From Acinetobacter lwoffii (GTDB lineage: Bacteria; Pseudomonadota; Gammaproteobacteria; Pseudomonadales; Moraxellaceae), in assembly GCF_019343495.1 (NCBI RefSeq), contig NZ_CP072549.1:992001-1056000 (forward strand): a stretch of DNA of 64,000 nucleotides, in the 5' to 3' direction. Below, piece after piece: positions 39,898 to 58,074 of the stretch. Below the pieces are notes generated by a model. The model was not told the DNA's origin and did no database searches. It saw only the letters and a program-made list of their open reading frames with translations. Positions within the stretch are counted from its first letter, which is position 1, and the number at the start of each line of letters is the position of its first letter. A program made the position numbers and the translations under genes.

Positions 39898-41199
39898 TTA
39901 TCCTTTCATCTCAGCAAAAGTTTCTTTTGCTGCTTGAATCGTGTAAGCAATATCTTCATCACTATGCGCAGCAGAAATAAATCCTGCTTCAAATGCTGAA
40001 GGCGCAAGGTTCACGCCACGATCGAGCATTCCATGGAAGAATTTACGGAAAGCATCGACATCACATTTCAACATTGAATCGAAGCTGGTGATGTCTTCCT
40101 GATCGGTAAAGTACAGACCAAACATCCCACCAACCTGTTGTGTCTTGAATGGAATGCCTGCTTCATCCGCAGCAGCTCGCAAGCCAACCAGCAGTTTCTC
40201 AAGTTGCGCAGACAATTTCTCATAGAAACCTTCAGCACGGAGATGTTTGAACATCTCGATACCGGCACGCATTGCCAATGGGTTACCTGATAGCGTACCT
40301 GCTTGATACACTTTACCCAATGGCGCGATGCATTCCATCACTTCACGTTTACCACCGAAAGCACCCACTGGTAAGCCTGCACCGATGATTTTACCTAAAG
40401 TGGTTAAATCCGGAGTAACGCCATAATGTGCTTGCGCACCGCCAAGACCGACACGGAAACCAGTCATCACTTCATCAATGATAAACACTGAACCATGCTC
40501 ATCACAGACATCACGAATCGCTTGCAGGAAACCATCAATCGGTTTCACAAGGTTCATGTTGCCTGCGACTGGCTCAACAATCACGCCGGCAATTTCCGAA
40601 CCAAATTTGGCAAAGCATTCTTTTAAAGTCGCGATGTCGTTATATGGAAGTGTCAGCGTATGTTTTGCAAAATCCGCTGGCACGCCTGCCGACGTCGCTT
40701 CCCCTTCACCACTGGTCAATAAACCTGAACCGGCTTTTACCAATAATGAATCCGAATGACCGTGATAACAGCCTTCAAATTTTACAATCTTGTCACGGCC
40801 AGTATAACCACGCGCTAAACGAATCGCGGTCATGGTCGCTTCTGTACCTGAGTTGGTCATACGAACCAGCTCAATCGATGGCATGATCTCGCAGATAATG
40901 TCTGCCAGTGTGGTTTCATGAACTGTGGGCGCACCAAAGCTCAAACCGTCTACTGCGGCATCCTGAACCGCTTTAATAATCGCTGGATGCGCATGACCCA
41001 AAATCATCGGCCCCCATGAACCTACATAGTCCACATAACGTTTGCCATCGACATCATACAGATACGCACCTTGGGCTTTTTCGATAAAGACCGGCGTCCC
41101 ACCGACACTATTAAATGCGCGTACAGGTGAATTGACGCCACCCGGGATATGTTTATTGGCTTGTTTGAACAATTGTTCTTGCTTTGGAGATAAGCTCAT
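39898..41199 (-). CDS. hemL: Glutamate-1-semialdehyde 2,1-aminomutase
   Basis: A 433-residue PLP enzyme that makes 5-aminolevulinate in the C5 tetrapyrrole pathway. It shows [18 protein letters not shown], the [13 protein letters not shown] segment, [13 protein letters not shown], and the PLP-binding Lys in [19 protein letters not shown] (near residue 267). Length is normal. It is followed by a hairpin and lies between the GlcG-like gene and thiE, all on the minus strand; thiE ends 38 bp upstream, so cotranscription with thiE is likely. Confidence 0.97.
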
Positions 41200-41237
41200 G
41201 AAGGCACTCGACTCAAAATTAAATCAATCAAAAAATT

Positions 41238-41870
41238 TTATGCTGTAGCTTGAAAAAGCGCAGACCATTCATCTAAACGTTCAGGAATGGCATTCATAGG
41301 AAGTCCCAATATATCACTAATCACCGCGCAATAATCCGCACCTGACTCAATGACATCCTTTGAATTTTCAACCGTTAAACCACCAATGGCACAGAGAGGC
41401 ACGTTCAATTTTTCTTTGGCCAGTTTTAAGGTTTCAAGACCAATATTACCCGCTTCAGGTTTACTATCAGTCGCATAAATTGCTCCAAATGCCACATAAT
41501 TCGCACCATCGGCAATGGCCTGTTTAGCCAGCTCAAGTGAGTTATTACAGCTACGGCCAATCAACACGCCTTTAGGCAAACGCGCAACAGCGTCGACAAT
41601 CGAACCATCATCCTGGCCTAAATGCACACCCACGCCGTATTTAACCGCCATTTCCAGATCATCGTTAATCACGAAAGGTACGCCATATTCAGCACACATG
41701 GCTTTCATGTACTCGATTTCGTAAATTTGATCTTCTTTCGCCACTTTTTTACGGCGATATTGCAAGACCGCAACACCACCATTGGCCATTGCACCTTCCA
41801 ACTTCGCCAATAAAAGCTCTAATGGATCATCATTGGTAATTAAATATAAACCGCGCATCTTGCTCGCCAC
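41238..41870 (-). CDS. thiE: Thiamine-phosphate synthase
   Basis: A 210-residue TIM-barrel enzyme that couples HMP-pyrophosphate to the thiazole phosphate. Family motifs are LYLITND at the N-terminus, VLQYRRKK, VINDDLEMAVKYGVGVHLGQDDG, IGRSCNN and the phosphate site CAIGGLTVENSKDVIESGADYCAVIS. No TPP riboswitch is visible upstream on the minus strand. A TATAAT at 41886-41891 on that strand is a possible -10. Probably cotranscribed with hemL. Confidence 0.95.
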   Translation of the reverse strand: MASKMRGLYLITNDDPLELLLAKLEGAMANGGVAVLQYRRKKVAKEDQIYEIEYMKAMCAEYGVPFVINDDLEMAVKYGVGVHLGQDDGSIVDAVARLPKGVLIGRSCNNSLELAKQAIADGANYVAFGAIYATDSKPEAGNIGLETLKLAKEKLNVPLCAIGGLTVENSKDVIESGADYCAVISDILGLPMNAIPERLDEWSALFQATA

Positions 41871-41951
41871 TTGCTAGGATGGCTCTATTATAGGCATAAC
41901 TCGGTTTAATTGCCGCCATCTTGCTGTTTCTGAGACCAGGTAGCAACAGAT

Positions 41952-42160
41952 TTGCAGTTTTTTAGCGCGATTTATCAATTAAATCTTAAATATCCCCATT
42001 TTCAGGGATATACGGTCTTTCAAATCTGCGTTTTAATTGCCTTATAACAATAATTATAAAGTGTTAATGCTTACGCCCTCCGACAAACGCTTTTAGGATT
42101 TTGCAGATAACTTGGTGGAGAAGTTGCAAAATTCTAAGAGCGATTTTTTTGTCTTTTTTT
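41952..42160 (+). ncRNA. Candidate structured RNA element A (tandem copy 1)
   Basis: A non-coding unit with, in order: an AT-rich promoter-like stretch; a TATCCC / GGGATA hairpin holding CCCATTTTCAGGGATA (41995-42010); a second conserved block near 42028-42049; and a long stem with arms CGCTTTTAGGATTTTGCA (42088-42105) and TGCAAAATTCTAAGAGCG (42125-42142). The 19-nt loop contains CTTGGTGGAGAAGT, and a T7 then a T-rich tract follow, as in a Rho-independent terminator. The only frames are tiny. The strand is chosen by the T tract. No known RNA family is recognised. A close relative lies about 208 bp downstream. Confidence 0.55.
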
Positions 42161-42372
42161 CGCCTGGCTCAAGCGTACTCAAATTAATTAATATTAAAAA
42201 TACCCATTTTCAGGGATAGCCCAATCGGCACGAAGCGTCTTAAATAGCCTTAGACACAGAAAATAAACAGAAAAATAAATACCTGTGTCGGTAATACCCG
42301 ATCCTTTCTGGTTTTGAGTCATTCTTTTGTGGGGAGACGTTTCAAAGCCAGAAAGGATCTTTTACTTTCAGC
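42161..42372 (+). ncRNA. Candidate structured RNA element B (tandem copy 2)
   Basis: Same order of parts as element A. An AT-rich leader similar to A's precedes CCCATTTTCAGGGATA (42203-42218), identical over 16 nt. A second conserved block near 42235-42258 follows, then GACACAG/CTGTGTC short arms. The long stem has arms GATCCTTTCTGGTTTTGA (42300-42317) and TCAAAGCCAGAAAGGATC (42342-42359), 17 of 18 pairing. Its loop contains CTTTTGTGGGGAGACG, like that of A. The stem sequences of A and B differ but pair equally well, which favours a conserved RNA structure. A TTTT tract follows. Confidence 0.5.
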
Positions 42373-42461
42373 ACAAATCCACATGAATTCTTCCATGAAT
42401 ATTTACACAATAGCATCAGCAAAATTTTAGACATTTATTGATAGCAAACAGGCATAAAAAA

Positions 42462-42491
42462 AGCCCGGAGAAGGTCGCTCCAGGCTTGGAA
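42462..42491 (-). terminator. Minus-strand terminator
   Basis: Minus-strand hairpin AAGCC-TGGAG / CTCC-GGGCTT (one mismatch) with a T7 tail. It probably ends transcription from the Mpo1-like gene about 150 bp upstream and insulates the RNA elements. Confidence 0.7.
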
Positions 42492-42638
42492 AACTGTTGT
42501 ATTGATTAAAATAGAATGGTTGATCAAAAAACCTAATCTGCAATAACATAATTATTAGAATAATAATTCTAGACTTGCAAGGCTTTTATCGAAATTTCAT
42601 GCTTTAAGTGGGCACATTCCGATAAAAGTCATTCTGGC

Positions 42639-43022
42639 TCAACTGGAAATTTTATCGTATTTACGGTCGATCAGACTGATATTACCGCGCAGGACATCGG
42701 CAAACATGCGCCAGTCCGAGATAAAGCTATATACAGGCTGTTTGAAGCTGGCCGGTTTATTGCGCTCAAAGATAAAATGACCGACCCAGGCACAGGCATA
42801 ACCAGATAGCAAACCATAGGCAAAATATCGCGGCTTGCCTTGACGAATGGCTTTGGCAAAACAGTATAAACCGATGCTACTGCCGGCCACGTGCAGGCGG
42901 CGGCTGATAATATGCCGATGCTCAGTCAAATAGAAGCGATAAAATTCATGATAACTCTTAATCGGCATCTGGGGCTGAACCATCACCTCATTCTTACTTT
43001 CTGGTTGTACTTGTACATTCAT
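42639..43022 (-). CDS. Mpo1-like / DUF962 membrane protein
   Basis: A 127-residue DUF962 (Mpo1/YGL010w-like) protein. Conserved features are SYHEFYRFYLTEHRHIISRRLHVAGSS (His in EHxHxxxRRLHxxG), the membrane segment with YFAYGLLSGYACAWVGHFIFERNKPA and the FSISDWRMF-type ending VYSFISDWRMFADVL. Yeast Mpo1 is an iron-dependent dioxygenase of 2-hydroxy fatty acids; bacterial members may degrade fatty acids similarly, but this is not shown. Predicted two hydrophobic helices. Single gene. Confidence 0.9.
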   Translation of the reverse strand: MNVQVQPESKNEVMVQPQMPIKSYHEFYRFYLTEHRHIISRRLHVAGSSIGLYCFAKAIRQGKPRYFAYGLLSGYACAWVGHFIFERNKPASFKQPVYSFISDWRMFADVLRGNISLIDRKYDKISS

Positions 43023-43350
43023 CTGTCATCATCCTGACGTTTTTGTTTTACATTAGCGTATATTTTAGCCAAATAACAGCCTTTTGATGCGCACTTCAAT
43101 GCATCTTGCACATCCTCGTGAAGGCCTGAATCCGATTGTTTTAGCCTAAAATGAACCGATGAAATCTAAGTTTCAAACTTCTGTTTAAGCTTTTTATGTT
43201 CCGTCAAGTCTTACATGCATTTTGATTTTGGTTACAATCTGCTGCGCACAAATCTAAAAATATAATTGCGGCTGCTGTCCGCCTTATTTCATAACCTTAT
43301 TCAAGTGAAGATTCAGCGCTTAATTGCACTGAACAGATAGGATGATCATC
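43023..43350. other. Intergenic region Mpo1-like / CYTH-CHAD 1
   Basis: About 330 bp between divergent genes. I see no RNA gene, repeat or convincing short coding frame. It must hold the promoters for both flanking genes. Confidence 0.5.
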
Positions 43351-44808
43351 ATGGTTGAAGTTGAACTCAAGTTCCAGATTCCTGCGGCACGACGCACTGC
43401 ACTGCTCAAGGCACTTGATCCGAAAAAGTCTCAACAGATCCAGCTTCAAGCCAAATATTATGATACTGCCGACCGCCAACTGGCCCGGCATGGGGTGGCA
43501 CTGCGTCAGCGTCTGGAAGGTACACGTTGGGTGCAAACGCTAAAAGCGGCCGGAAAAAGCCATATCGAACGCTTTGAACATAATCATGATCTAGGGGAAT
43601 TAACCGCATCTCCTGAACTGGATTTAGATATTTATAAAAAATTTCCAGAAGCCGGGGCAATTCTCAGCAATGCGCTCAGCAATCAGTTCAACCAGCTACA
43701 ACTCCAGTTTGAAACCGACATTTCCCGCACGTTAAGGGTAATTGACTATGAAGACACCCAGATCGAAGTCAGCCTGGATATTGGACAGATCCGCACACAG
43801 GATGCCGAGCAAGAAGTACATGAAGTCGAGTTCGAACTAAAAAATGGTTCAATTCAACATCTGCTGGCGTTTAGTTTTGAATGGGTCAAGAAATACCAGC
43901 TCTGGCTCGATGTACGTAGCAAGGCTGAAATAGGCAATCTATTGGCCACTTCACAGCGCGTCAGTCCTGCGACCCTTAGCAAAGAATTTCAGATCAGCAA
44001 AAAAGACAGCGCCAGTAAAACCATGTACAGTCTGATTGCACAGCAGATGCAGCATTTATTGCCGAATATCGCGGCGATTGCAGCTCAGGTTGCAGAGCAG
44101 GAACATATTGATCAGGCACGACTGGCACTGGATCACTTATATCTGACCTTGCTGCTCTTCAAAGACTGGCATCCACAGCTTTCGGACAAATGGGCACATC
44201 AACTGGCGGCCTTTAAGCAGCAATTTGAACATTTGCAACATTTACAGCATATGCAAAACAGCTTGGCCGGCTTCCTGCAAAATCCCACCACGGCAGAAAA
44301 CCTGAGCAAAGATATTCTGTATGCGCAGGAGAAACTCGGTAATCTGGTCAAATCTACCCAGAATGTGCATCATTATCTGGAATTACTGATGTTCAGTTTA
44401 AATGAAAATGAGCATGCCTCGCTGGACTTGAAAACTGCTGCTCAAACTACCTTGCAACAGCAATATAAAGCTTTGCAGGAACAAATGAACCAGACCGATA
44501 TCACTGATTTTGAAAGTCTGGATCAATTGTCGGGCCGGATTCAGGAGCTCAAATTCAGCTTTCCGATTTTAACCACGATCTATGATGTCAAAAATTTGCA
44601 GAAATACAGCAAAGCGCTGAACGATGCTCAACTGGCAGCCAGTGAATATCAAACTTTGGCCTCTTCTGCAGTTTATATTCAGCAGACCGAGCTGGAAGCA
44701 AGTGACTGGTTTGTGCTGGGCTGGCTGACTGCCAAGCAGGAAGTCTATGCGCAGAAACTGCTTGAAGCGACCGAACAGTTCTTGGTCAGTCGTAAATTCC
44801 TGAAATAA
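43351..44808 (+). CDS. CYTH-CHAD protein 1 with degenerate CHAD half
   Basis: A 485-residue protein. The N-terminal CYTH domain (residues 1 to about 195) has the EVELK (ExExK) signature at residues 3-7 and the paired acidic/basic strands of triphosphate-tunnel enzymes. The C-terminal half aligns with the CHAD domain of the next gene, but the basic HxxRVxxRRLR helix is replaced by HIDQARLALDHLYLTLLLF, so phosphate binding is probably reduced or lost. The usual role of such fusions is hydrolysis or binding of inorganic triphosphate or polyphosphate. I start at 43351, with AGGA before it, rather than at 43342. A terminator follows the stop. Confidence 0.87.
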   Translation: MVEVELKFQIPAARRTALLKALDPKKSQQIQLQAKYYDTADRQLARHGVALRQRLEGTRWVQTLKAAGKSHIERFEHNHDLGELTASPELDLDIYKKFPEAGAILSNALSNQFNQLQLQFETDISRTLRVIDYEDTQIEVSLDIGQIRTQDAEQEVHEVEFELKNGSIQHLLAFSFEWVKKYQLWLDVRSKAEIGNLLATSQRVSPATLSKEFQISKKDSASKTMYSLIAQQMQHLLPNIAAIAAQVAEQEHIDQARLALDHLYLTLLLFKDWHPQLSDKWAHQLAAFKQQFEHLQHLQHMQNSLAGFLQNPTTAENLSKDILYAQEKLGNLVKSTQNVHHYLELLMFSLNENEHASLDLKTAAQTTLQQQYKALQEQMNQTDITDFESLDQLSGRIQELKFSFPILTTIYDVKNLQKYSKALNDAQLAASEYQTLASSAVYIQQTELEASDWFVLGWLTAKQEVYAQKLLEATEQFLVSRKFLK

Positions 44809-44840
44809 AAATATTGAAATAAAAATATTGAAATAAATAT
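44801..44840. repeat. Short tandem repeat across the stop codon
   Basis: A 14-bp unit TGAAATAAAAATAT occurs twice exactly and a third time with a 2-bp shortening. The CDS stop lies in the first unit, so unit-number changes would not alter the protein. Confidence 0.85.
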
Positions 44841-44854
44841 CACAAGAAAAACTC

Positions 44855-44883
44855 AAAGCACGCCTTCTCTGGCGTGCTTTTTT
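44855..44883 (+). terminator. Terminator after CYTH-CHAD 1
   Basis: AAAGCACGCC / GGCGTGCTTT hairpin with a T6 tail, between the two paralogues. They therefore appear to be separately transcribed. Confidence 0.88.
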
Positions 44884-44962
44884 GTTGCAGAAGCACATCA
44901 CACCCCTGCCGATCTTTGGGCTATATTAATCTATAAAACCAACATCGCGGAGGAATGACCCG

Positions 44963-46417
44963 ATGGCAGAAATAGAACTCAAATTCCAGATTCCGCCACA
45001 GTCTCGTGTGCAATTTGAACAGGACATTCAGAAACTTCAGCCGACTCGGCATCGTCTGTGTGCACGCTACTTTGATACTGAAGCGCAACAATTACAACAA
45101 CATCAGATTGCCCTGCGGCAACGTCTGGAAGACCAGCAATGGATTCAAACCCTGAAAGCAGCGACTGAACAACAATTTGAACGTTTTGAACTTGAGCATG
45201 AATTAAAAAGTCCTCCGGAACATTGTGATTTTCAGTTATATCGCAAACATAAACCTGCCAAAAAAATCCTGAAACAGGCGCTCGGTGATCTGGAGACACC
45301 GCTTATTCTGCAATTTGAAACAGATGTCGTACGGTATGTACTCACAGAAAGTCATCTGGACAGTAAGATTGAAATTGCCTTTGATGTCGGAGAAATTCGA
45401 CACAATGATCAAGCCATCGATATTTATGAAGTCGAATTTGAGCTTAAATCCGGCCAGCTGAGTGAATTGATTGATTTCATTCAGCCCTGGGTTCAGCGTT
45501 ATGCTTTGTGGCTGGATACACGGAGCAAATCGGAACGCGGTTATGCCTTATTACATGATGAAGAGAGTCTGCCAGTTCAGCATCAGCTTCCCTTAGTGCT
45601 TGAACAGAAAGATCAGATCAGTACGATTTTACAAAAAATTGTCGCCAACTGTCTGGCTCATCTTTTCCCAAATGCGACGGCGATTGCTGCCGAGAATTAT
45701 AATAGTGATCATGTGCATCAGGCACGTGTTGCGATTCGACGTTTGCGCAGTGCTTTTAAAATTTTCCAGTCCGTGACTGAACATGTACAGCCAGAATGGC
45801 CGGAACAGCTGCGGGATATTTTTCAGCAACTGGGTTCCACCCGAGATCGCGATGCCCTGGCAGAAAGCCTGATTCCACAACTGGAAAAAGCAGGTTCACC
45901 CTTACTGAAATTACCACCACACCGACAAAAACAACCAGATATCAGTGCGCTGTTCAGAAGTCCTGCTACCGTAGAACTAATGCTGCAACTATTCAGCTTT
46001 AGCCAAGAAAAAACGGATAATAAAGCCAAGTCTTCGCATAAAATTTTGTGTAAAGGCTTAAGCAAACTGCACCAGCAAATCTGTCAAGATGCCGATAACT
46101 ATCAAGAACTGGATATTGAATCCCGGCATCGGACACGCAAACGGGTCAAACGCTTACGCTATAACGTAGAATTCTTGCAAAGCCTGTTTCCTGAAAAAGA
46201 GGTTAAAGCTTATTTAAAAGCCTTAAAACCCTTGCAAGAAAGCCTTGGGCATTATAACGACCTATTTGTTGCAGACGAGTTATTTAGACCTTATGTCAAA
46301 CAACAGGCCAAGGCCTGGTTTGTACTGGGCTGGATAAGTGCGGAACAGCAGCGTTTGTCGAACGAAGCAGCAGAGCGTTTACAGCAGTTTGCAGAAAATA
46401 CCAAGCCCTTCTGGTAA
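44963..46417 (+). CDS. CYTH-CHAD protein 2
   Basis: A 484-residue paralogue of the preceding protein. CYTH domain: EIELK at residues 3-7, then RARYFDTEAQQL-type CARYFDTEAQQL and RQRLEDQQWIQTLK. CHAD domain: VHQARVAIRRLRSAFKIF and SRHRTRKRVKRLRYNVEFL carry the conserved His and basic residues, so this copy has an intact phosphate-binding surface. GGAGGAATGACCCG precedes the ATG. The predicted function is triphosphatase or polyphosphate-linked binding in the cytosol. It is more conserved than copy 1 and is likely the ancestral activity. Confidence 0.9.
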   Translation: MAEIELKFQIPPQSRVQFEQDIQKLQPTRHRLCARYFDTEAQQLQQHQIALRQRLEDQQWIQTLKAATEQQFERFELEHELKSPPEHCDFQLYRKHKPAKKILKQALGDLETPLILQFETDVVRYVLTESHLDSKIEIAFDVGEIRHNDQAIDIYEVEFELKSGQLSELIDFIQPWVQRYALWLDTRSKSERGYALLHDEESLPVQHQLPLVLEQKDQISTILQKIVANCLAHLFPNATAIAAENYNSDHVHQARVAIRRLRSAFKIFQSVTEHVQPEWPEQLRDIFQQLGSTRDRDALAESLIPQLEKAGSPLLKLPPHRQKQPDISALFRSPATVELMLQLFSFSQEKTDNKAKSSHKILCKGLSKLHQQICQDADNYQELDIESRHRTRKRVKRLRYNVEFLQSLFPEKEVKAYLKALKPLQESLGHYNDLFVADELFRPYVKQQAKAWFVLGWISAEQQRLSNEAAERLQQFAENTKPFW

Positions 46418-46439
46418 GACCGGGCTTGGTCAAACTGTG

Positions 46440-47081
46440 CTAGCGATATTTGCCGAATACTTTCCAGGTATTATTGTCTGCCAGAGGATCGTTATAACTG
46501 TCGCTGCGTTGCTTGCGTGGCTTATCGCGTGCATCGACCAGTTCAAAATGTGGCTCAACACTCAGCACAATCCCATTCACATAAAAACGGGTGCGCGTAT
46601 ATTCGCTCTGGCCATGCTGAAACACATAAGTGCGTAAATCCACAAATTCACGGTGTGCCACCAAAGCTGCAGTATCGTCACTATCAAGCCACTGCCGCAT
46701 GGCTGCAATCTGCTCGGGTTCGAACTGGCCGCATTTTTCGATCAGGCTGGCGACCCCACGAAAAGTTTTGGATTCCTTGGCGCGGGTTTTATTAATGCGA
46801 ATCCGGTCAACATGAAAATAAAACAGCGGCAAGTTTAAATGACTCGGCAGATGGATCGCATCCAAGATTTCATCTTCCATAAAAGGCTGAAACAGATCCT
46901 GTGCCCTTTCAATCAGCCCGAGCCACTGGCTATAGTATTCATCTACCTGTGACTGGCTGCCATAATAAATCGGCAAGCCTTCAACATTGGCTAGATTTGC
47001 CGGTGGCCAAATATTCTGGCGCAATAAGGCAATATCACTTTTTAGGCTTTGTACTGCAATCGCATCCTGCATGGCATTCAC
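46440..47081 (-). CDS. Conserved hypothetical protein (213 aa)
   Basis: No family recognised. The 213-residue product has no signal peptide or membrane helix. It is rich in charged residues, with long helical stretches (SLKSDIALLRQNIWPP, QSQVDEYYSQWLGLIERAQDLF) and a beta-rich C-terminal half (TRFYVNGIVLSVEPHFELVDARDK). Codon use resembles the neighbours and no overlapping gene conflicts, so it is probably real. It converges on CYTH-CHAD 2, whose stop is 22 bp away; no clear terminator lies between. Confidence 0.7.
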   Translation of the reverse strand: MNAMQDAIAVQSLKSDIALLRQNIWPPANLANVEGLPIYYGSQSQVDEYYSQWLGLIERAQDLFQPFMEDEILDAIHLPSHLNLPLFYFHVDRIRINKTRAKESKTFRGVASLIEKCGQFEPEQIAAMRQWLDSDDTAALVAHREFVDLRTYVFQHGQSEYTRTRFYVNGIVLSVEPHFELVDARDKPRKQRSDSYNDPLADNNTWKVFGKYR

Positions 47082-47183
47082 TTTTATATGCTTAGGCTAT
47101 TTTTTAGATTAAGGCAAAGGTTTAGTTTCTGCAAGGCTTTGCCTATAATTAACGATTGAGATTTTAGTGTTAGGAACAAATTC

Positions 47184-56602: not shown

Positions 56603-56687
56603 TGGTGGGGACGGAGAGACTCGAACTCTCACACCTCGCGGCGCTGGAACCTAAATCCAGTGCGTCTACCAATTTCGCCACGTCCCC
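56603..56687 (-). tRNA. tRNA-Leu (TAG)
   Basis: An 85-nt class II tRNA with a long variable arm, acceptor GGGGACG / CGTCCCC, anticodon loop TTTAGGT (anticodon TAG), discriminator A and encoded CCA. One of four identical Leu(TAG) genes in the window, in a Leu-Trp-Leu cassette. Confidence 0.96.
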
Positions 56688-56726
56688 ATCAGGGTACCAA
56701 CTTAGCGTTGGATTTTTTTCAAACTT

Positions 56727-56800
56727 TGGCAGAGGATCAAGGATTCGAACCTTGACGAACGGTTTTGGAGACCGTCATGCTACCATTACACCAATCCTCT
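56727..56800 (-). tRNA. tRNA-Trp (CCA)
   Basis: A 74-nt tRNA with acceptor AGAGGAT / ATCCTCT, anticodon loop CTCCAAA (anticodon CCA), discriminator G and encoded CCA. A1-U72 and G73 fit bacterial Trp identity. Its D-arm is short (TGTAATGGTAGCA), unlike E. coli tRNA-Trp. Identical to the copy at 57881-57954. Confidence 0.9.
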
Positions 56801-56835
56801 ACTTCCACCCAATATTCAGTTTCCCAAATATCGAT

Positions 56836-56920
56836 TGGTGGGGACGGAGAGACTCGAACTCTCACACCTCGCGGCGCTGGAACCTAAATCCAGTGCGTCT
56901 ACCAATTTCGCCACGTCCCC
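56836..56920 (-). tRNA. tRNA-Leu (TAG)
   Basis: Identical to the Leu(TAG) gene at 56603-56687. First gene of the distal Leu-Trp-Leu cassette in transcription order. Confidence 0.96.
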
Positions 56921-56933
56921 AATGGCTGTGTAT

Positions 56934-56960
56934 ATTATAGAGATAGACCGGCATTGACAA
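56934..56960 (-). promoter_or_regulatory. Promoter for distal tRNA cassette
   Basis: On the minus strand, TTGTCA (56955-56960), a 15-bp spacer and TATAAT (56934-56939), with the tRNA starting 14 bp after. The same spacing occurs in all three tRNA promoters here. Confidence 0.8.
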
Positions 56961-57256
56961 GCGATTTTACAAGCAATCACAATCTATTCCGCTATAAAAT
57001 AAACAGTTAGTTTAATTTTTTATAAAATTTATGTCGAAAATTTGATTGATTTGAAGATATGACTGCCCATCCGTTATTTTTAATCATTTCGATTCAATTC
57101 CAACATTTCAAATTAAAACTCAAATAAATTTCTAATCTTGATCAACATGAGCATTCAAAATACTGAAACTATTATTCATAAATTATTTTTGAAGCAGTGC
57201 ATGGAATCAGAATACAACACAGCATAAATACAACGGCTTTGCCAAATTTCAGGCAA

Positions 57257-57284
57257 TAAAAAAGCAAGGCACTCGCCTTGCTTT
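57257..57284 (-). terminator. Terminator after tRNA-Leu (CAG)
   Basis: AAAGCAAGGC / GCCTTGCTTT hairpin, with a T6 tail on the minus strand. It shares its sequence with the other two tRNA terminators. Confidence 0.87.
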
Positions 57285-57291
57285 AATATGA

Positions 57292-57377
57292 TGGTGGGGA
57301 TAGAGAGACTCGAACTCTCACGCCCAGAAGGCGCTGCGACCTGAACACAGTGCGTCTACCAATTCCGCCATATCCCC
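57292..57377 (-). tRNA. tRNA-Leu (CAG)
   Basis: An 86-nt class II tRNA with acceptor GGGGATA / TATCCCC, anticodon loop TTCAGGT (anticodon CAG) and encoded CCA. It lies alone between the two Leu-Trp-Leu cassettes, with its own promoter and terminator. Confidence 0.96.
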
Positions 57378-57389
57378 ATGGCTGTGTAT

Positions 57390-57416
57390 ATTATAGCGAT
57401 CAGACCTGATTCACAA
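57390..57416 (-). promoter_or_regulatory. Promoter for tRNA-Leu (CAG)
   Basis: On the minus strand, TTGTGA (57411-57416), a 15-bp spacer and TATAAT (57390-57395). Confidence 0.78.
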
Positions 57417-57722
57417 GTAGTTCTATAAAAAGCTAAATACTTTTATATCAAAAATTAATCAGTTAATTCCCTATTGAGCAAATACTGCTCTATTTAGACC
57501 AATATATAAAATTGATAGACACCATGGGACTGATTCATATGACATTTAAATTATTGAATATAGAGATCGCATGAATTCTTGCAGCAATACAATGAAATTT
57601 GCTAAGGCCCCACCCTTGCCTGATCATTCACTTAAGAAGTGAAATCCTGAATGCATTGTAATTCATTAATCTTGACAGCAAAAATCTGATACTAAAAAAA
57701 CCGACCTCAAATTTGAGGCAAT

Positions 57723-57750
57723 AAAAAAGCAAGGCTGATGCCTTGCTTTA
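57723..57750 (-). terminator. Terminator of proximal tRNA cassette
   Basis: AAAGCAAGGC TGAT GCCTTGCTTT, with a T6 tail on the minus strand. Confidence 0.88.
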
Positions 57751-57756
57751 ATATGA

Positions 57757-57841
57757 TGGTGGGGACGGAGAGACTCGAACTCTCACACCTCGCGGCGCTG
57801 GAACCTAAATCCAGTGCGTCTACCAATTTCGCCACGTCCCC
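57757..57841 (-). tRNA. tRNA-Leu (TAG)
   Basis: Identical to the two Leu(TAG) genes of the distal cassette. Last gene of the proximal cassette. Confidence 0.96.
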
Positions 57842-57880
57842 ATCAGGGTACCAACTTAGCGTTGGATTTCTTTCAAACTT

Positions 57881-57954
57881 TGGCAGAGGATCAAGGATTC
57901 GAACCTTGACGAACGGTTTTGGAGACCGTCATGCTACCATTACACCAATCCTCT
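57881..57954 (-). tRNA. tRNA-Trp (CCA)
   Basis: Identical to the tRNA-Trp at 56727-56800, including the short D-arm and the CTCCAAA anticodon loop. The flanking spacer differs from the other copy by one base (GATTTC versus GATTTT). Confidence 0.9.
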
Positions 57955-57989
57955 ACTTCCACCCAATATTCAGTTTCCCAAATATCGAT

Positions 57990-58074
57990 TGGTGGGGACG
58001 GAGAGACTCGAACTCTCACACCTCGCGGCGCTGGAACCTAAATCCAGTGCGTCTACCAATTTCGCCACGTCCCC
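57990..58074 (-). tRNA. tRNA-Leu (TAG)
   Basis: Identical Leu(TAG) gene, first in transcription order of the proximal Leu-Trp-Leu cassette. Confidence 0.96.

Follow-up and report, generated by a model that had tools for sequence, protein, structure and literature searches.

What is encoded between thiE and the Mpo1-like gene of Acinetobacter lwoffii is the question raised by this locus. In the window (the whole stretch of DNA analysed, 64,000 nucleotides long), the list of open reading frames leaves about 770 bp between thiE (41238-41870, minus strand, TMP-TENI domain) and the Mpo1-like gene (42639-43022, also on the minus strand), and no ORF of at least 60 aa lies inside 41871-42638. This is in agreement with a previous sequence-only reading, which had considered the region non-coding and had proposed that it harbors a pair of small RNAs. 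The scenario that we consider probable, on the basis of comparative sequence analysis, is that of a small-RNA family under the control of a two-component system, doubled in the A. lwoffii clade and belonging to an adhesion-like regulon.

Organization of the two units

The two units, A and B, both lie on the plus strand between the two genes, and the box that opens each of them was found at 41993-42010 and at 42201-42218, which confirms the two paralogous copies 208 bp apart that had been described. The order of the parts is the same in both: the box, a -10-like hexamer 21 bases further on, a leader and a 19-bp hairpin. The box of unit A, TCCCCATTTTCAGGGATA (41993-42010, plus strand), bears one mismatch, at its second base, and represents a candidate operator for a NarL/LuxR-type response regulator, given the association between box and regulator reported below; the putative -10 hexamer TTTAAT (42032-42037, plus strand) is placed 21 bases past it, as in most other units, an automated hexamer scan favouring the alternative TATAAC (42043-42048). 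Judging from the -10, the hairpin and the T tract, small RNA A would extend on the plus strand from about 42045 to about 42160; its predicted hairpin (42088-42142, plus strand) consists of a 19-bp stem, with arms 42088-42106 and 42124-42142, and of the loop ATAACTTGGTGGAGAAG, and is followed by a T-rich tract. The corresponding parts of unit B, on the same strand, are the box TACCCATTTTCAGGGATA (42201-42218), identified by pattern match, the putative -10 TTAAAT (42240-42245), again 21 bases past the box, a predicted small RNA B with a leader of A-rich composition (approximately 42253-42375) and a folded hairpin (42300-42359) with a 19-bp stem (arms 42300-42318 and 42341-42359) and the loop TCATTCTTTTGTGGGGAGACGT. 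Several named A. lwoffii records share this unit-B hairpin (L287, L291, L292, L294 and L300). Unit A closes with the T-rich ATTTTTTTGTCTTTTTTT, that is, the T tract already noticed, and unit B with the poorer tract TTTTACTTT; a terminator-like site behind the Mpo1-like gene (42461-42487, minus strand) represents a boundary and lies outside the units.

The long stems previously predicted are present in both units, but each of them counts 19 pairs and not 17-18. As had been claimed, their arms diverge and still pair: the 5' arms of A and B are 37% identical by position and both are fully paired. The loops share the expected core GTGGRGA, and the second common block (GCGT.TTAA) was also recovered and covers the putative -10 region. 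The folding z-scores are -6.23 for unit A and -5.64 for unit B, none of 200 shuffles being equally stable. The box itself was also considered as an RNA hairpin and discarded, being weak alone (z -1.74 and -0.79) and preceding the predicted transcription start.

The Rfam search gave no match at gathering scores, either at the region, which had been thought to hold an undescribed family, or in 15 related loci; in a permissive search the hairpins drew only sub-threshold matches, all to microRNA models except rliE (other strand). The overall body of data supports the interpretation of A and B as putative paralogous structured small-RNA genes, absent from Rfam at gathering scores.

The box and the predicted promoters

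The box is a dyad, TACCCAT-N4-AGGGATA, which occurs twice in the window at up to three mismatches, the average over 100 shuffles being 0.06 matches; in the whole genome only the two unit boxes match at up to one mismatch, and a looser pattern adds one site. We take the box of unit B to consist of two NarL-type heptamers (TACYYMT) placed face to face across four bases. The centre of the box would fall near -42 of the predicted promoter, where a class II activator would be expected to bind. In 19 of the 24 units that make up the family (see below), the distance from the box to the best -10-like hexamer is 20-21 bases, and in 14 out of 31 regulator-type genes it is 21-22 bases. No sigma-70-like -35/-10 site was found on the plus strand between 41880 and 42640, and since the unit promoters have no good -35, an activator bound to the box is probably needed for their transcription. 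As to the GacA upstream box, for which we assumed the consensus TGTAAG-N6-CTTACA, no match with up to three mismatches exists in 39960-47129, and the 23 matches in the window correspond to chance level (26.3 expected).

The response regulator and the genes preceded by the box

The genome of the window harbors, about 104 kb from the units, a response-regulator gene with an adjacent kinase gene. The regulator contains the Response_reg (2.9e-19) and GerE (6.6e-19) domains, and the kinase contains HATPase_c (5.5e-13) and 7TMR-DISM_7TM, the latter at 1.8e-4 and below its curated cut-off. A receiver joined to a GerE/LuxR DNA-binding domain, with a histidine kinase gene next door, is what characterizes the NarL/FixJ family, and the fit of the box to the NarL heptamer is a further likeness between this family and the proposed activator. 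The box also precedes a NarL/LuxR-type response-regulator gene in L011 and, in 16 out of 30 regulator loci, it begins (at up to four mismatches) 69-88 bases ahead of the matched regulator start; the 14 loci without it include all ten loci of the A. lwoffii clade.

To describe the distribution of the box among 149 Acinetobacter genomes, we called RR+ the 78 with a regulator match at E <= 1e-50, including a few broken or incomplete ones, and RR- the other 71. The RR+ genomes contain 151 box sites and the RR- ones 19 (Mann-Whitney p 1e-15, uncorrected for kinship), an excess to which the regulator's own promoter boxes contribute in part, whereas a reversed-pattern control gave 64 and 61 sites, respectively (p 0.83). 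At least one box is present in 66/78 RR+ and in 16/71 RR- genomes, and a box at up to one mismatch was found in 82 of the 149. The box of the units most likely answers to a NarL/LuxR-type two-component system, as this co-occurrence suggests.

In other species, the box precedes the genes for two ESPR/TPS exoproteins, for one fimbrial and one GGDEF protein (L112, L195, L165 and L144) and for further regulators, a set that differs, like the hairpin RNAs, from the nitrate respiration genes of the NarL/FixJ family; of ten box-preceded proteins searched in Pfam, three matched no family and a fourth gave only a match below the cut-off. Judging from the domain names, the box genes look like a surface-attachment (adhesion-like) regulon. 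The guess that the motif CAGGGAT is an RNA-level CsrA site finds no support: it lies upstream of the predicted transcription start and behaves as a DNA operator, common to the response-regulator gene and to adhesin genes. In the same way, the shared sequence CCCATTTTCAGGGATA, previously assigned to the RNA, is most likely a DNA operator near -42 of each predicted promoter.

Homologues of the units

A sequence search in 58 genomes, including that of the window, revealed five others with matches at 82-96% over the greater part of the region, and a further four with short partial matches only. Because the stem sequence changes quickly, homologues were searched by means of the box. We took 80 regions, mostly around box sites, plus the loci collected earlier, for a total of 131 distinct box sites. 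None of the 59 sites placed before a coding frame (at least 120 aa, starting within 150 bases) had a stem score of at least 11.5, whereas 24 out of the 72 other sites did. Units with a stem score above 10.5 were assigned to the family, 24 in all, once L164, L187 and L118 had been set aside for their dissimilar hairpins; L164 is still counted among the 24/72, and the family member L023 falls below the 11.5 cut. In the 24 units the stem is positioned 74-103 bases past the box, and the apical loop is mostly G-rich (TTGGGGAA or GTGGGGA, for instance); the stem sequence is not kept, the 5' arms of ten lineages being 11-78% identical. When named genomes were searched with the box alone, 23 stretches were retrieved, with the hairpin in 12 of the 17 from Acinetobacter (score 10.7-17.4) and in none of the six from other taxa (score up to 8.3); the species of these named genomes overlap with the 149-genome set. 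Both elements occur together in named records of A. lwoffii, A. variabilis, A. pragensis, A. cumulans and A. tianfuensis, among others.

Covariation of the stems

MAFFT misregisters the stems, so a six-member seed was used and the sequences were then re-aligned with the model. In this structure-fitted alignment of 14 members, 17 out of 24 pairs changed on both sides, and 96.0% of the cells are paired, versus 79.3% after shuffling and at most 52.3% when the partner is slid. A sequence-only alignment (A2, 19 members) gave 11 pairs, six of which with double changes, and -1.29 kcal/mol. Homologues of the same build with strong compensatory stem change, on which the sequence-only reading had made its proposal depend, therefore exist in other Acinetobacter genomes.

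For this purpose a model made from A and B had been suggested; the covariance models used here, built from other species, retrieved homologues with covarying stems but missed units A and B themselves. The model R1, obtained from six members of other species, recovers L186 and also very different stems (L108, L107, L027, L159, L200, L184 and L140; E 1e-9 to 1e-5) from loci which had been collected by box or Mpo1 flank and not by the model. Close relatives of unit B score with it (L015 at 7e-4, L022 at 1e-3), whereas R1 misses the two units of the window at E up to 10, and the second model, R2, misses them in their own genome at E <= 0.01 with strict filters. Their probable membership of the family is based on the box, the spacing, the length of the stem, the loop and the location. 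The palindromes also match more weakly on the opposite strand (L038, L033, L186, L139, L194, L027 and L155 antisense, with R1).

With R2, matches at E <= 0.01 are present in 38 of the 149 genus genomes, 29 of which have one just 3' of the Mpo1-like gene; all 19 matches with E up to 1.2e-8 are located there. Among 249 family genomes from 16 genera, 16 matched R2 at E <= 1e-4, and 15 of these are Acinetobacter; the outside match, in G236 (L324), is a perfect hairpin with no box or GGGG loop, with CCCTATTTT behind it, as in the family.

Presence, loss and doubling beside the Mpo1-like gene

The survey of the Mpo1-like gene flanks covered 93 of the 126 genomes with this gene, G069 (94 bases) having been dropped. 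A box (up to three mismatches) with a hairpin was found in 43/93 flanks, a figure that overstates the frequency because 24 flanks entered the survey on account of a unit already known from box or model searches; the partition is 40/67 RR+ versus 3/26 RR- flanks (Fisher p 2e-5). Among the flanks chosen blind, 19/69 have a unit (17/44 RR+ versus 2/25 RR-, Fisher p 0.01). An equally good box before a random point occurred in 8 out of 1860 shuffled flanks.

No unit was detected in 27 of the 67 RR+ flanks, two of which, from G012 and G168, have R2 matches. The three RR- exceptions (G033, G151 and G154) lack the regulator in a laxer search, too; in G033 unit A has lost the match of its 3' arm and unit B has one mismatch and 18 pairs, and a good hairpin persists in G151 and G154. 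According to a stem search, unit A is present in 12/93 flanks (G000, G002, G009, G023, G025, G064, G079, G081, G082, G133, G136 and G167), always together with unit B, so that the doubling belongs to the A. lwoffii clade; the other unit-bearing genomes have one unit each.

Possible mechanism and alternative explanations

The transcription of units A and B, the direction of their regulation and their mode of action can be outlined as follows, by inference from their parts. A signal would be perceived by the kinase through its 7TMR-DISM-like membrane part, and the NarL/LuxR-type regulator, once phosphorylated, would bind the box and activate the RNA genes. The products would be RNAs of about 110-120 nt, in which a single-stranded A-rich leader (mean 53% A across the family) precedes a rigid stem (16-25 bp across the family) showing a G-rich apical loop. 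Such an RNA might act as a post-transcriptional regulator through this loop, by pairing with C-rich stretches of mRNAs or by binding a protein. That the loop is the contact surface is a tentative suggestion, on which we would not insist; the leader as a landing site for Hfq is a guess held just as loosely, its composition being suggestive. A more speculative and rather doubtful extension is that selection keeps only a rigid rod of 16-25 bp and the G-rich loop, as a scaffold commanded by the response regulator that would capture a protein or C-rich RNAs independently of Gac/Rsm, with paralogues in the genus under other control, namely a multi-copy branch of which some members have CRP/Vfr-like sites.

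A different possibility is that the RNAs are sponges of CsrA (RsmA), i.e., a second Rsm-like pair in which the GGA of the loop binds CsrA and the response regulator replaces GacA. Twin RNAs coupled to a two-component system are reminiscent of Gac/Rsm. Indeed, GacS/GacA-RsmX/Y/Z (CsrB/C) also combine a LuxR-type regulator with paralogous RNAs bearing GGA loops, even though regulation is here predicted, and RetS and LadS of the Gac/Rsm systems have 7TMR-DISM sensors. Moreover, the stem presents a loop with GGA in 22/24 units, and CsrA was reported, in the available part of the paper, to be essential for A. baumannii growth in rich medium (PMC12802169). However, the several unpaired GGA of CsrB/RsmZ are not seen: one loop GGA occurs in those 22 units and none in the other two, so that each RNA exposes at most one, and GGA occurs 1.9 times per transcript versus 1.4 in shuffles. 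The sequence GGGCA is found in loops of the G011/G016/G073 type, and neither GGA nor GGG in that of G088. Gac/Rsm RNAs have many short GGA hairpins, whereas the units have one long covarying hairpin in which GGA is not strictly kept; the operator is a NarL-like dyad, with no GacA-type box nearby. The loop GGA as a CsrA site, which had been put forward as a guess, is possible but weak, and we regard the sponge as unlikely, ranking it below RNA pairing by the loop, or binding of another protein to it, because of the single GGA per RNA and of the GGGCA loops. In A. baylyi ADP1, Rsm-type RNAs have been predicted between ACIAD0018/0019 and ACIAD2750/2751, according to the accessible portion of PMC5568370.

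It appears very improbable that we are dealing here not with RNAs but with DNA-level or mobile elements (MITE, REP or attC-like sites): long palindromes and a related branch that is multi-copy in some genomes would fit such an origin, but the units' region has a single match in its own genome and none in 72,556 plasmid records, its place by the Mpo1-like gene is constant in many species, the operator/-10 spacing is fixed, and the loop is kept while the stem changes. The idea that the structures are leaders or terminators of an adjacent gene hardly deserves credit, since, apart from the T tract that ends unit A, thiE and the Mpo1-like gene are both on the minus strand, no plus-strand frame of at least 60 aa starts between the units and 43342, and a terminator-like site of its own lies behind the Mpo1-like gene.

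The reading that we prefer, that of small RNAs controlled by a two-component system, belongs to a well-known kind; the family, the operator and the architecture appear to be new. A search of titles and abstract openings, with most subscription papers outside its coverage, gave no report on these RNAs or their regulator. Other Acinetobacter small RNAs are AbsR11, AbsR25, AbsR28 and Aar: AbsR11 and AbsR28 are called Acinetobacter-specific in the part of PMC3976366 at hand, and Aar, described in the consulted section of PMC11472050 as mostly single-stranded with two 3' hairpins, is set apart from the units by this description only. The published small-RNA papers, as far as their available parts indicate, mainly concern A. 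baumannii, and the carriers reported here are other species. If the proposal is true, it adds a regulatory RNA family at the level of the genus, with a dedicated regulator and operator predicted for it, and one testable regulon joins small RNAs with adhesins, a GGDEF enzyme and a two-component system. A stem almost free of sequence constraint with a kept loop also poses the question of the binding partner of that loop.

Other elements of the genus and of the window

A second long-hairpin branch, with a related stem of the CTCTCTAATTCTTTG type, is multi-copy in some genomes. Most of its 14 loci (L314-L323 and L325-L328; genomes G103, G105, G107, G058, G154, G266, G102, G023, G168 and G018) have a similar -10 and an A-rich leader, with no response-regulator box and no GGGG loop, and three of them (L314, L323 and L328) have an exact TGTGA-N6-TCACA upstream, which we take to be a CRP/Vfr-like site. 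The copy of G023 (L326) had no match in the genome of the window, in a search run without a positive control.

In several species the box is also found 55-78 bases ahead of a frame of 27-32 codons for a membrane-like peptide (MDIYLIAVLFLLLIALLLGISMYKSRF and similar ones), in seven loci (L104, L106, L119, L136, L141, L181 and L204) from a list filtered to frames of 22-34 codons starting with MD. The elements present in other box-driven non-coding stretches (L118, L187, L191, L197 and L135) are the hairpin AATATTTYTATTAC...GTAATRGAAATATT and AGGTTTA...TAAACCT, which resembles a terminator and has T after it.

Finally, two adjoining frames of the window, 43342-44808 (488 aa) and 44963-46417 (484 aa), presumably CYTH/CHAD-like, have similar starts (VEVELKFQIP and AEIELKFQIP), and seven tRNA genes lie on the minus strand at 56603-58074, where two copies of a Leu-Trp-Leu set are separated by about 1150 bp.
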